Below are positions 52,100-55,803 of a stretch of 60,497 nucleotides of DNA, in pieces. A program made the position numbers and the translations under genes. The stretch is taken from positions 1 to 60,497 of the forward strand of contig JALFKC010000014.1 in the NCBI GenBank assembly GCA_022775765.1. The letters run 5' to 3'. The notes under the pieces are model-generated. The model made no database searches, was not told where the DNA came from, and worked only from the letters and a program-made list of their open reading frames with translations. Origin of the DNA: Campylobacter sp. GTDB taxonomy: Bacteria > Campylobacterota > Campylobacteria > Campylobacterales > Campylobacteraceae. Position 1 is the stretch's first letter; every line of letters starts with the position of its first letter.

Positions 52100-52636
52100 T
52101 TAAATCCCAAACTCATACAGATGTCCAAAACCAAGCTTAACCAAAGCCCCATGCACAATTAATGCTAAAAGTCCAGCAAACCCTCCAGCCAAAACATCAT
52201 CAAGCATAACCCCAAGCCCACCTTTGACATCTCTATCGACCTTGCCGATGATTGATGGTTTGAGTATATCAAATCCTCTAAAAAATATCACACAAAGCAA
52301 GATGTTAAGGTATGAAAAGCTTAACTCCCCACCAGTTCCAAAAAGATCAATCCCTCTACTAGCCCCAGCTATCGCCATTGCAAGCCAAACTCCCACAACT
52401 TCATCAATTACAATAAATGAGTTGTCGTGTTCGCCACTAATGCTTTCAAGTTTATTGACTAAATTTATCCCTATCAAAAAAAATAGAATTGAGAGCAAAA
52501 ATAGCGTCTCGGCAGTTAAAAACTTAAGCACCACAAGACCCACTAAAGCCCCTGCGATACTCCCCCAAGTTCCCGGTGCCTTTGGCATTAATCCGGTGTA
52601 AAAAAATGTCAAAATTAGTTTTTCAGTTTTATTCAT
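52100..52636 (-). CDS. pgpA: Phosphatidylglycerophosphatase A
   Basis: Removes phosphate from phosphatidylglycerol phosphate in the inner membrane. The 178-residue protein has the N-terminal PKAPGTWGS, the acidic IDEVVGVW and FDILKPSIIGKVDRDVKGGL-type (FDILKP, VKGGLGVMLDDVLAG), and several membrane helices. It follows the ATP-sulfurylase-like gene after eight bases. Confidence 0.93.
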   Translation of the reverse strand: MNKTEKLILTFFYTGLMPKAPGTWGSIAGALVGLVVLKFLTAETLFLLSILFFLIGINLVNKLESISGEHDNSFIVIDEVVGVWLAMAIAGASRGIDLFGTGGELSFSYLNILLCVIFFRGFDILKPSIIGKVDRDVKGGLGVMLDDVLAGGFAGLLALIVHGALVKLGFGHLYEFGI

Positions 52637-52644
52637 AAATATCC

Positions 52645-53814
52645 TTAAGTAAGCGAGCTAGTTTGATACAAACTCATTAGCCCCTCATAAAATTCTCTAT
52701 TACTATGGTGTTCCAAAATCCCTTTGTTTGGAAACAAATCATTGCAAATTTCTTGTAAATTCTCAAACCTTTGTGTGTGCAAAGTTGATAAAATCAGGCT
52801 TGAAATCTCTTTTCTCATCAGTATGGCTGGTGGCATTATACCAGCGTTTAAAAGTGCTCTAAGGGTTTTGGTGTGATATTTGATATGGTGGTGAGAGCCG
52901 TGTGGGCAGGTTTTAGTGCTTACTATTGTCCTGCAGCGGTTGCAATACACATACTCAGCCATCACCAAAATTTCAATATCAAGCTCTTTTTTATAGTGAT
53001 CTAATAGTGTGTGATATTGATTATTGTCAAAATACATTCCTAAATTTCCATGATTTTGTCCGATGACAAATTTAGTCGCACCGAAATTTTTAGCAACAAT
53101 GCACTCAAGCTGTGGAAATTTATGGCTTGTAAATATATATGAATTTTCTATAGGAACTATTATTAACTTATTTCTAGGCAAAAATTTATTCGCAAAATAC
53201 TCTAGGCATTTTTTTCTAAGCTCAAAACTAAGAGTGTTTTTATAAGCGTTTTCTATGAGAAAAATCATTATCATATCAGCCTTATCAATCGTCATCCTAA
53301 TAAGCCTTTCATGGACTCTATGAAGCGGGTCAAGGCTCATCATTAAAGCGGTTATTTTTTTGACATTTAGCTCTTTTTTGATTTTTTGAATATGGTTTTT
53401 TATAGGAGCAATTTCATCTTTGAAAAGTTTAAATTCCCCACTAATCGCTATTTTGCCAAGTTTTTTGTCATCTTGCTCAAAGCTAAAAATAGAGCTATTT
53501 TGCCAACTTAAATCTATCTCAAAACTGCTATCAACTTTTAATTCACCAACCTTATCGTTATCTTTAATAAGGTCTAAAATTTCACCACTTTTAACCCCGC
53601 TAATACTTTTTATATTCTCTTTGCTAGCTGGGGCAAAAATAAATGGATATGGCATAGGTTCGTTTTGAAAATATCCTGTTTTTAACGCCTCTTCGATTTG
53701 GCTTTTGTCCATTAATTTAGTATATTTACCAAATGCGCCATTTTGAATTAAAGAAAGAATTTCAAAATCACCCTTATTTAAAAAGATAACTCTATTTTTT
53801 CTTGTAAATTCCAT
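52645..53814 (-). CDS. ATP-sulfurylase (sulfate adenylyltransferase)-like protein with altered active site
   Basis: A 389-residue protein with the overall ATP-sulfurylase plan: N-terminal PUA-like domain, nucleotide-binding domain, and the zinc-binding C-terminal part (CNRC 291-294, TKTCPH 301-305, then TKTLRALLNAG). The substrate motif QxRNPxHxxHE reads MSLDPLHRVHE (159-169): PLHRxHE is kept, but the Gln, Arg and Asn that hold sulfate are lost. GRDHAG reads GQNHGN (252-257). It may bind a nucleotide but use another acceptor. I start it at the ATG at 53814, which overlaps the regulator gene by 23 bases; the open frame upstream is inside that gene. Confidence 0.85.
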   Translation of the reverse strand: MEFTRKNRVIFLNKGDFEILSLIQNGAFGKYTKLMDKSQIEEALKTGYFQNEPMPYPFIFAPASKENIKSISGVKSGEILDLIKDNDKVGELKVDSSFEIDLSWQNSSIFSFEQDDKKLGKIAISGEFKLFKDEIAPIKNHIQKIKKELNVKKITALMMSLDPLHRVHERLIRMTIDKADMIMIFLIENAYKNTLSFELRKKCLEYFANKFLPRNKLIIVPIENSYIFTSHKFPQLECIVAKNFGATKFVIGQNHGNLGMYFDNNQYHTLLDHYKKELDIEILVMAEYVYCNRCRTIVSTKTCPHGSHHHIKYHTKTLRALLNAGIMPPAILMRKEISSLILSTLHTQRFENLQEICNDLFPNKGILEHHSNREFYEGLMSLYQTSSLT

Positions 53815-54691
53815 ATTTTTTCCTTTTTTCCCACAAAGATTTCCTTGACATTCCAAGTTTGCTTGCGATTTCGGTATCTGGGAGAACATTTTGGTGGATT
53901 TGAATAACTTGTTTGACATACTCATCTATGCTTAAAATTTCGCTATTTAGGCTAAAGCCTTTGGAAATTTTTGCTAATTCTAGTATGCGAAATTTACCAT
54001 TTTCACTTAAATTTGTCGTCGCAACGATTATTTTTTTGTCAAATGCATTTTCATAAATTTTATCTTTATCGCTTCCTTTGAGCTCTGCAATATTTGAGAG
54101 GTAATATACTTTTGTGCTATTTTCTTGCATAGTTTGCAAAAACTCTAAAACGCTAAATTCATCATTGATTCTAATAAAATCAAAACTAAGATCAAACTTC
54201 CAACACATTTGAAAGACATAGCTATCTGCATCGGCAATATTGATGGCTTTGATTAGCAGTGGAAACATAGGCTTAACAAATTCATATTTTTTATTACTAT
54301 CTATATCAAAATACTCTTTTATGTAATTTTTGTGGCTCTCATTTTGCGAAATTAGCTTTTTGTAGTTTTCAAAATGTTTGATTTTTCTAATGAGCTCTTC
54401 CATCATAAATGGCTTTTGCATATACTCGCTAGCCCCAGCTTTTATCGGATCAAGCACAGTGTCATTGCTAACGTACGAAACCATCAAAATGATAATTGAG
54501 TTTTTAAATTTATCAATTATTTTGTATAAAATATCGTGATTAATGCTAGTGCTAAGCAAAACTATATCAATATTGCTCTGTTTTAGGGCATCTTTTGGGG
54601 TAGAGATTTCACACTCATAGCCTAGTGCAATAAGCTTACTTGAGATGCTTTGGGCTAGATAAATTTCGCTTTCAATTATCAGTATATTCAT
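53792..54691 (-). CDS. cemR: Atypical orphan response regulator CemR (Cj1608/HP1021 type)
   Basis: About 299 residues: a receiver-like N-terminal domain, a middle domain, and a C-terminal Fis-like helix-turn-helix (DTEIASKLGMSRKSLWEKRK). The phosphoacceptor Asp is replaced by Ser47 in IDIVLLSTS, and the acidic pocket is ESE; the conserved Lys is kept in QKPF. The family (HP1021, CemR) acts without phosphorylation, binds the origin and controls energy metabolism. It has two cysteines (27 and one in FQMCW). The ATG at 54691 overlaps the ispDF stop as ATGA. Confidence 0.9.
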   Translation of the reverse strand: MNILIIESEIYLAQSISSKLIALGYECEISTPKDALKQSNIDIVLLSTSINHDILYKIIDKFKNSIIILMVSYVSNDTVLDPIKAGASEYMQKPFMMEELIRKIKHFENYKKLISQNESHKNYIKEYFDIDSNKKYEFVKPMFPLLIKAINIADADSYVFQMCWKFDLSFDFIRINDEFSVLEFLQTMQENSTKVYYLSNIAELKGSDKDKIYENAFDKKIIVATTNLSENGKFRILELAKISKGFSLNSEILSIDEYVKQVIQIHQNVLPDTEIASKLGMSRKSLWEKRKKYGIYKKK

Positions 54692-55803
54692 AGTTTTTTC
54701 CAATCAAAATATCCTAAAGTTACGCTTGCTATGCACGCAATGCCTTCACTCCTGCCTGTAAATCCAAGCTTTTCGGTGGTGGTGGCTTTAATATTTACAA
54801 ATTTAGTCCCCAAAATCTCACTTATCACTTCTCTCATTTTATCTTTGTATTCGCTAAGTTTAGGTCTTTGAGCGATGATGGTAATATCAGCGTTTTTGAT
54901 GATAAATCCATATGAGTTAATCCGTTTTACAATCTCTTTGAGTAAAATTTTAGAATCGATATTTTTGTAGCGTTCATCATTATCTGGGAAAAGCTCACCT
55001 ATATCTCCAAGCATACTAGCCCCACAAATCGCGTCAATTAACGCGTGAATACCAGCGTCTCCATCGCTATGAGCGATTAGGGCGTATTCACAGAGGATTT
55101 TAACTCCACAAAGCGTGATATACTCACCACTTCTAAGGGCGTGAACATCAAAGCCATTGCCGACTAAAATATCGCTTGAAGCACTTTGAAAATCAAAAAA
55201 CTTAAGATCTTCTATTTTGGTGATTTTTTTCATATCATCTTTAATCTCTACAAACTTAAGCTTTCCACCAACTGATTTGATAGCAGAGCTATCATCAGTG
55301 AAAATCTCATCTTTTAAAAGTGCGGCTTTAAGCAGACTGACGCGAGAAATTTGTGGGGTTTGGATGAGTTTGATTTCGTTTCTATCCACCAAACTTTCAC
55401 CCAAATACGCAGTGTCACTAATGCTAGTATATGGGCTAATACAGTCACAATCGGTTAAATTCTCAAAGAGTTTGTTTATATTTTCCTTGCTAACTTTTGC
55501 CCTAGCTGCGTCGCTAACCATTACAAACTCGCTATCAACCATATCAAGGGCGTTTTTAAGTGAAATTTGCCTTAAATTACCCCCTTTTACGTATTTGAAA
55601 TTTGGGGCTATCTTTTGCATATAAGAGATATCGCTATCTTTGGCAACAATTATGATCTCTTTAAATTTATAAATCTTTTCAAATTCTTTAGCCACAAAAA
55701 GCCAAAGTGGCAACTCGCCAAACCTTAACCACTGTTTTTTAATAGGTGCTTTAAATCTAGTTGCGTCTCCAGCGCAGAGTAAAACTAATGATAAATCATG
55801 CAA
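54688..55803 (-). CDS. ispDF: Bifunctional IspD/IspF enzyme
   Basis: Two steps of the MEP isoprenoid pathway in one 371-residue chain. Residues 1 to about 205 are the cytidylyltransferase (LLCAGDATRFKAPIKKQWLR, SDAARAKV), and from about 212 the cyclodiphosphate synthase (GFDVHAL, HSDGDAGIHALIDAICGASM-type, AQRPKLSEY, TTEKLGFTGRSEGIAC-type). Fusion of the two is normal for epsilonproteobacteria. First gene of the ispDF-cemR-sat-like-pgpA run. Confidence 0.95.
   Translation of the reverse strand: MHDLSLVLLCAGDATRFKAPIKKQWLRFGELPLWLFVAKEFEKIYKFKEIIIVAKDSDISYMQKIAPNFKYVKGGNLRQISLKNALDMVDSEFVMVSDAARAKVSKENINKLFENLTDCDCISPYTSISDTAYLGESLVDRNEIKLIQTPQISRVSLLKAALLKDEIFTDDSSAIKSVGGKLKFVEIKDDMKKITKIEDLKFFDFQSASSDILVGNGFDVHALRSGEYITLCGVKILCEYALIAHSDGDAGIHALIDAICGASMLGDIGELFPDNDERYKNIDSKILLKEIVKRINSYGFIIKNADITIIAQRPKLSEYKDKMREVISEILGTKFVNIKATTTEKLGFTGRSEGIACIASVTLGYFDWKKL

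Follow-up and report, generated by a model that had tools for sequence, protein, structure and literature searches.

In the ATP sulfurylase (ATPS) of A. vinosum, sulfate is contacted by Gln199, Arg201, and Ala299-NH, the alpha-phosphate by Thr200, Arg201-NH, and Asn202, and the ribose by Gly295, Arg296-O, and His298, with pyrophosphate and the transition state held by Asn202, His205, His208, and Arg365 of the SGTxxR motif, and with GxxKxxD forming a mobile lid (PMC3779200). This site has been described as virtually identical across the metabolic roles of the enzyme (PMC3779200). In genome papers on Sulfurimonas, Nautilia, and other Epsilonproteobacteria, a Sat is taken to be the enzyme that activates sulfate (e.g., PMC4584964, PMC4674564, PMC7952632, PMC10092268), and a TraDIS study of C. 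jejuni repeats the annotation "sulfate adenylyltransferase" for Cj1609, which transposon libraries scored as part of the essential core in six strains of C. jejuni and four of C. coli but not in the single strains of C. lari and C. hyointestinalis (PMC10077673). C. jejuni reportedly does not grow on sulfate (PMC9855970). The adjacent gene, Cj1608, encodes the response regulator CemR, for which a C. jejuni deletion strain exists and whose signal perception is said to be unknown (PMC11334517).

Here, we analyzed a Cj1609-type gene in a 60,497-nucleotide stretch of Campylobacter sp. DNA (the window). The name satL (protein SatL) was coined in this analysis for the Cj1609-type "sat" family of Campylobacterales.

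Gene neighborhood and distribution

The neighbors of satL in the window (Table 1) match Cj1607 (ispDF), Cj1608 (cemR), and pgpA of C. jejuni, and the gene is the only one of its kind in its genome. The coupling with cemR and ispDF on which the original prediction had remarked is upheld by the order ispDF-cemR-satL-pgpA, kept across most families, and by the cemR/satL overlap, which has the same 23-nt length in 69 of the 79 measurable orthologous loci, a recurrence that also supports the satL start codon. A conserved "YG" (TATGG) near the C terminus of CemR (53792-53814) is the source of the satL ATG; within family f6, this TATGG-derived ATG is gone from cemR where satL has moved or been lost.

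Table 1. Features of the satL locus and of the SatL protein in the window
Feature	Position	Strand	Remarks
pgpA, phosphatidylglycerophosphatase A	52100..52636	(-)	downstream of satL, operon-like array
satL, Cj1609-type divergent ATP-sulfurylase paralogue	52645..53814	(-)	389 aa, ATG start
C-terminal tail G...FYxxLxxLYQT	52648..52722	(-)	codons 365-389; conserved
HTKTLR at place of pyrophosphate-site SGTxxR	52858..52875	(-)	codons 314-319; motif lost family-wide
Zinc-type motif with extra His/Tyr block, CNRCRTIVSTKTCPHGSHHHIKY	52876..52944	(-)	codons 291-313; nearly frozen in family
GQNHGN at place of GRDHAG	53044..53061	(-)	codons 252-257; no Arg, but Gly and His of the ribose contact retained
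HRVH (HxxH)	53311..53322	(-)	codons 165-168; second His nearly invariant in relatives
MSLD at place of sulfate/alpha-phosphate loop QTRN	53329..53340	(-)	codons 159-162
cemR 3' end/satL 5' end overlap	53792..53814	(-)	23 nt
cemR, HP1021/Cj1608-type atypical response regulator	53792..54703	(-)	conserved neighbor of satL
ispDF, bifunctional isoprenoid enzyme	54688..55803	(-)	16-nt overlap with cemR

The gene occurs in 305 of 397 genomes of the phylum, about three quarters of the sampled Campylobacterota, and has been lost several times; where it has gone, ispDF-cemR-pgpA often remains, a clean gap marking its place (five such loci: L157 to L159, L161, and L163). A genome scan confirmed 520 relatives, the best 80 of which all appear to be Campylobacterota, one of them titled just "Proteobacteria bacterium", and a plasmid scan returned, besides canonical ATPS, a single copy, on a Sulfurovum plasmid. 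In two genomes of family f6, satL lies away from the cemR locus, beside queH, which it faces. There, a small lipoprotein-like gene follows the relocated satL, overlapping it or a few bases on (L046, 4594-4998; L053, 4565-4990), the two lipoprotein-like genes being 31% identical to each other. Two candidate associations were rejected: a link to thiamine, proposed as thiC-mrp often adjoin ispDF, since the presence of thiC does not follow that of satL, and a satL-pgpA fusion at one locus (L049), since an in-frame stop separates the two.

Fold and ancestry

SatL matches the Pfam ATP-sulfurylase family PF01747 with an E value of 3.5e-49 (167.5 bits, against a gathering score of 24.3), its score for Pfam PUA_2 falls under the cut-off, and it reaches neither the NCBIfam sopT sulfate adenylyltransferase equivalog (84.1 bits, cut-off 322.95) nor NF003166 (132 bits, cut-off 387). 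The closest solved structures to an AlphaFold2 model built from 48 aligned relatives (pLDDT 87.6, pTM 0.85) are all ATP sulfurylases when compared by VIA-align, including the Thermus enzyme 1v47 (Z of 27.7, 3.0 Å over 316 residues) and the Methanothermococcus enzyme 8a8d (Z of 27.5); the next folds are PPAT/CoaD, at a Z of about 14, and NMNAT. A maximum-likelihood tree split 27 SatL sequences from 12 canonical ATPS at 100/100, and SatL is an ATPS fold in a separate, fully supported clade. The N-terminal PUA-like half is unrecognizable at locus L011 and strongly diverged at L012 and L013, and the C-terminal half is retained at all three (genomes G004, G011, and G012).

Substrate sites and the distribution of constraint

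The case for a lost sulfate activity had been built on MSLD in place of QxRN and GQNHGN in place of GRDHAG, and both read as claimed, the window protein having MSLDPLHRVHE where canonical ATPS has QTRNPxHRAHE. We compared 139 distinct SatL orthologue rows (140 sequences, effective number about 71) with 12 canonical ATPS. The Gln and Arg of QxRN, present in 12 of 12 canonical enzymes, are gone family-wide across the 139 rows, the Arg position being occupied by A (0.87), F (0.06), G (0.04), or L (0.03), a pattern that is not due to chance. Orthologues with a canonical QxRNP in the same position were looked for and none was found. At the positions of the sulfate contacts Gln199, Arg201, and Ala299, the family has M/L, A, and A/S/G; at those of the alpha-phosphate contacts Thr200 and Asn202, it has A/S/T and N/D/K, with D or K replacing the Asn in about half of the rows. 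The GRD Arg is replaced by Q, K, E, or A in 92% of the family (Gln reaching 0.72) and is R in 8% by weight, and D is absent from the residues listed at the GRD Asp position; of the ribose contacts, the Gly is retained at 0.94 and the His at 0.93. At SGTxxR, the consensus is about H-S/A-x-S/T-I/L-x with no fixed Arg, the GxxKxxD pattern is absent and MRYAGP is replaced across the family, and, of the 56 positions at which the 12 canonical enzymes do not vary, 40 are not kept. Zinc-type cysteines and length are kept, as first described; PLHRVHE is likewise kept in the window protein but is not fully fixed in the family. The losses of SGTxxR, MRYAGP, and GxxKxxD, together with the gains of a zinc/His block and a tail, go beyond the original observation.

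Both gains are nearly frozen across the family: the pattern CxxC-x8-CPHGxHHHxxY, and the C-terminal tail, to which nothing corresponds in any of the 12 canonical ATPS. With constraint taken as the minimum number of substitutions per position on the SatL family tree, the zinc/His block (mean percentile 3), the tail (6), and the HxxH-helix residues (1) are slow, whereas the sulfate contacts (42), SGTxxR (64), and GxxKxxD (68) are average or faster, a contrast indicating that constraint has shifted out of the substrate groove and into the zinc segment. In ATPS, this segment joins the adenine-binding strand to the pyrophosphate-binding helix (PMC3779200); by homology with it, the SatL zinc/His/Tyr block should cover the side of the groove that formerly held pyrophosphate. 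Among several changes in an aerotolerant C. coli isolate is "sat" A290V (PMC5366326), which, at SatL residue 290 in C. coli numbering (L102), alters the CxxC of the zinc motif itself, from CDAC to CDVC.

Sulfate assimilation context

No other sulfate-assimilation gene had been seen near satL. This is correct and applies to the host genome as a whole, where PAPS reductase/CysD (PF01507) and APS kinase (PF01583) have no match; in a panel of 32 genomes, several others with satL lack both as well. Conversely, two genomes without satL (G021 and G042) have two strong PF01507 matches side by side, of the CysD/CysH type. A high-scoring canonical ATPS occurs in only 3 of 200 genomes of the class, and 2 of these 3 also have SatL; where SatL stands alongside an intact canonical ATPS (two genomes), the canonical gene in one of them, G171, follows that of APS kinase. 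C. jejuni itself carries a SatL-type protein with the same motif losses. This comparison of gene content, taken with the growth report for C. jejuni, shows that the presence of satL is not tied to sulfate assimilation in either direction. At locus L141 (7550-9123), in a satL-bearing genome of the C. jejuni-like genus, a canonical ATPS gene directly follows an APS kinase gene near those of an AMP-binding enzyme and a pyruvate-kinase-barrel protein, and the cluster possibly provides surface sugars with PAPS or a similar activated group.

Discussion

From sequence, genomic context, and growth data, we conclude with high confidence that SatL is not an ATP sulfurylase. The loss of sulfate activation is very likely, since the motifs are replaced family-wide and the host genome has neither PF01507 nor PF01583; the original prediction of a lost sulfate activity appears well supported by the family-wide loss of contacts, the missing downstream enzymes, and the C. 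jejuni growth report. The label "sulfate adenylyltransferase" is accordingly very probably wrong for SatL.

As to what the protein does instead, we tentatively favor a neofunctionalized pseudo-ATP-sulfurylase that would bind an adenylyl-type ligand and act through its zinc/His block and tail. SatL retains the fold, the second HxxH His, most adenosine-ribose contacts (Gly252 and His255), and the zinc site, as judged from the sequence and the model. On the same evidence, the contacts to sulfate, the GxxKxxD mobile loop, and SGTxxR, which binds pyrophosphate, have been given up, and purifying selection has shifted to the zinc/His/Tyr block and the C-terminal tail. The proposed mechanism would run as follows: (i) an adenylyl-type ligand would still be bound, with sulfate no longer activated; (ii) the zinc/His block and tail would act either by rebuilt chemistry or by contact with a partner protein; and (iii) SatL, translated from the cemR overlap, would be made together with CemR, yet its function would not pass solely through CemR. 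Nucleotide binding is here something that we infer, because the first HxxH His and the QxRN Asn vary.

A repurposed nucleotidyltransferase is a rather unlikely alternative, in which HxxH-based nucleotidyl transfer would serve an acceptor other than sulfate and the zinc/His/Tyr block would replace the Arg of SGTxxR. The second His (0.99 of the family), Glu169, Arg166, and Pro163 are essentially invariant, PPAT and NMNAT are the nearest folds after ATPS, and the reported essentiality of Cj1609 fits an enzyme. In the wider nucleotidyltransferase superfamily, the first HxxH position is H or T, and T occurs in SatL too. However, at that position His stands at 0.80 (N 0.17, T 0.03), with N or T in 27 of the 139 rows (N in 25) and at least 7 changes on the SatL tree, and in human ATPS a single His-to-Ala mutation abolishes activity (PMC11697783). 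The alpha-phosphate Asn, moreover, is D or K in about half of the family. Ordinary adenylyl transfer from ATP is doubtful, since SGTxxR is gone and HxxH tolerates N or T; a nucleotidyltransferase with another substrate, as first suggested, keeps a modest probability.

The other suggestion, a nucleotide sensor for CemR, would make SatL a dedicated sensor or adapter that detects an adenylate ligand and adjusts the activity of CemR by direct contact. Besides the conserved 23-nt overlap, it can draw on the unexplained signal perception of CemR and on co-occurrence, in that all 305 satL genomes have cemR and none of the 9 genomes without cemR has satL, counts that are phylogenetically nonindependent, the nine including one clade and probable draft gaps. 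The SatL-CemR partial distance correlation (0.55) is also the highest in the operon, ahead of pgpA-ispDF (0.40), SatL-ispDF (0.38), and SatL-pgpA (-0.16). On the other hand, cemR persists without satL in 83 genomes, and successful work on CemR has been done in H. pylori and A. butzleri, whose groups, from their presumed identity, appear to be satL-less. A SatL-dependent CemR surface was sought through positions relaxed in both satL-less clades and none was visible, as only 1 of the 67 CemR positions conserved in satL genomes is changed in both clades, and that conservatively (E102 to D); the controls gave 0 of 112 positions for ispDF and 0 of 44 for pgpA. Furthermore, Cj1608 can be deleted and Cj1609 is scored essential, from which it follows that SatL acts beyond CemR, unless the essentiality reflects polarity on pgpA, as it may, or a CemR left unrestrained. 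A role confined to sensing for CemR is, on this balance, quite unlikely: the overlap, co-occurrence, and correlation hold, and the unchanged CemR and the contrast in essentiality count against it. One nearly complete genome from the genus to which the window belongs (G005) has neither cemR nor satL, even though CemR acts elsewhere as a global regulator.

Combining the two lines, SatL might be an adenylate-reading protein that is cotranslated with CemR, the global energy regulator of the phylum, acts on it to give it its missing input, and has a second role essential in C. jejuni, a composite that we hold to be very doubtful.

We regard as distinctly improbable a structural or nucleic-acid-binding protein, whose PUA-like domain, zinc block, and tail would bind RNA or another macromolecule over a vestigial groove. 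Constraint does lie in the zinc/His block and tail and not in the groove, and satL adjoins queH, a tRNA-modification gene, at L046 and L053; against this, the Gly and His that contact the ribose persist at 94% and 93%, and the PUA-like domain is the least conserved part of SatL, as seen at L011 and at L012 and L013. This domain is, moreover, general to ATPS, where it is not known to bind RNA.

That the annotation is right, SatL having remained an ATP sulfurylase whose active site is unusual, is close to negligible as an explanation, for although the Pfam match, fold, HxxH, and zinc site agree with it and published genome papers name it Sat and put it in sulfur pathways, all sulfate contact side chains and the pyrophosphate motif are lost in the whole clade of an enzyme whose site is otherwise virtually identical across roles, the host has no downstream enzymes, and C. 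jejuni has SatL and does not grow on sulfate.

Insofar as the Sat sequences counted in Epsilonproteobacteria belong to the SatL family, the sulfate-activation inferences drawn from them need to be rechecked. The protein is widespread, was scored as essential in both C. jejuni and C. coli, and is very probably misannotated; it is a candidate for an essential function other than sulfate activation and, less likely, for the source of the CemR signal. It also offers a natural case of an ATPS fold retained after its substrate sites have been dismantled.

In comparison with canonical ATPS (1v47, 8a8d, and the A. vinosum enzyme 4dnx), SatL shares the whole fold, the PUA-like N-terminal domain, the HxxH helix, the CxxC...C zinc segment, and the PPxxxxR segment, but it lacks QxRN, the GRD Arg, GxxKxxD, MRYAGP, and SGTxxR, has gained CPHGxHHHxxY and the C-terminal FYxxLxxLYQT, and forms a clade of its own. 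With PPAT/CoaD and NMNAT, the HxGH nucleotidyltransferases, it has in common the fold of the catalytic domain; these enzymes, unlike SatL, have neither a PUA nor a zinc domain, and they bind the triphosphate through an ISSTxxR-type motif, which SatL does not have. Cj1609 ("sat") of C. jejuni belongs with SatL to one orthologous family with an identical operon order, and the motif losses are identical in the C. jejuni and C. coli relatives; it differs in that C. jejuni has SSFDPLH and a tail ending in HQMSYMV, whereas the corresponding stretches read A[N/D/K]P and YQTSSLT in most of the family.
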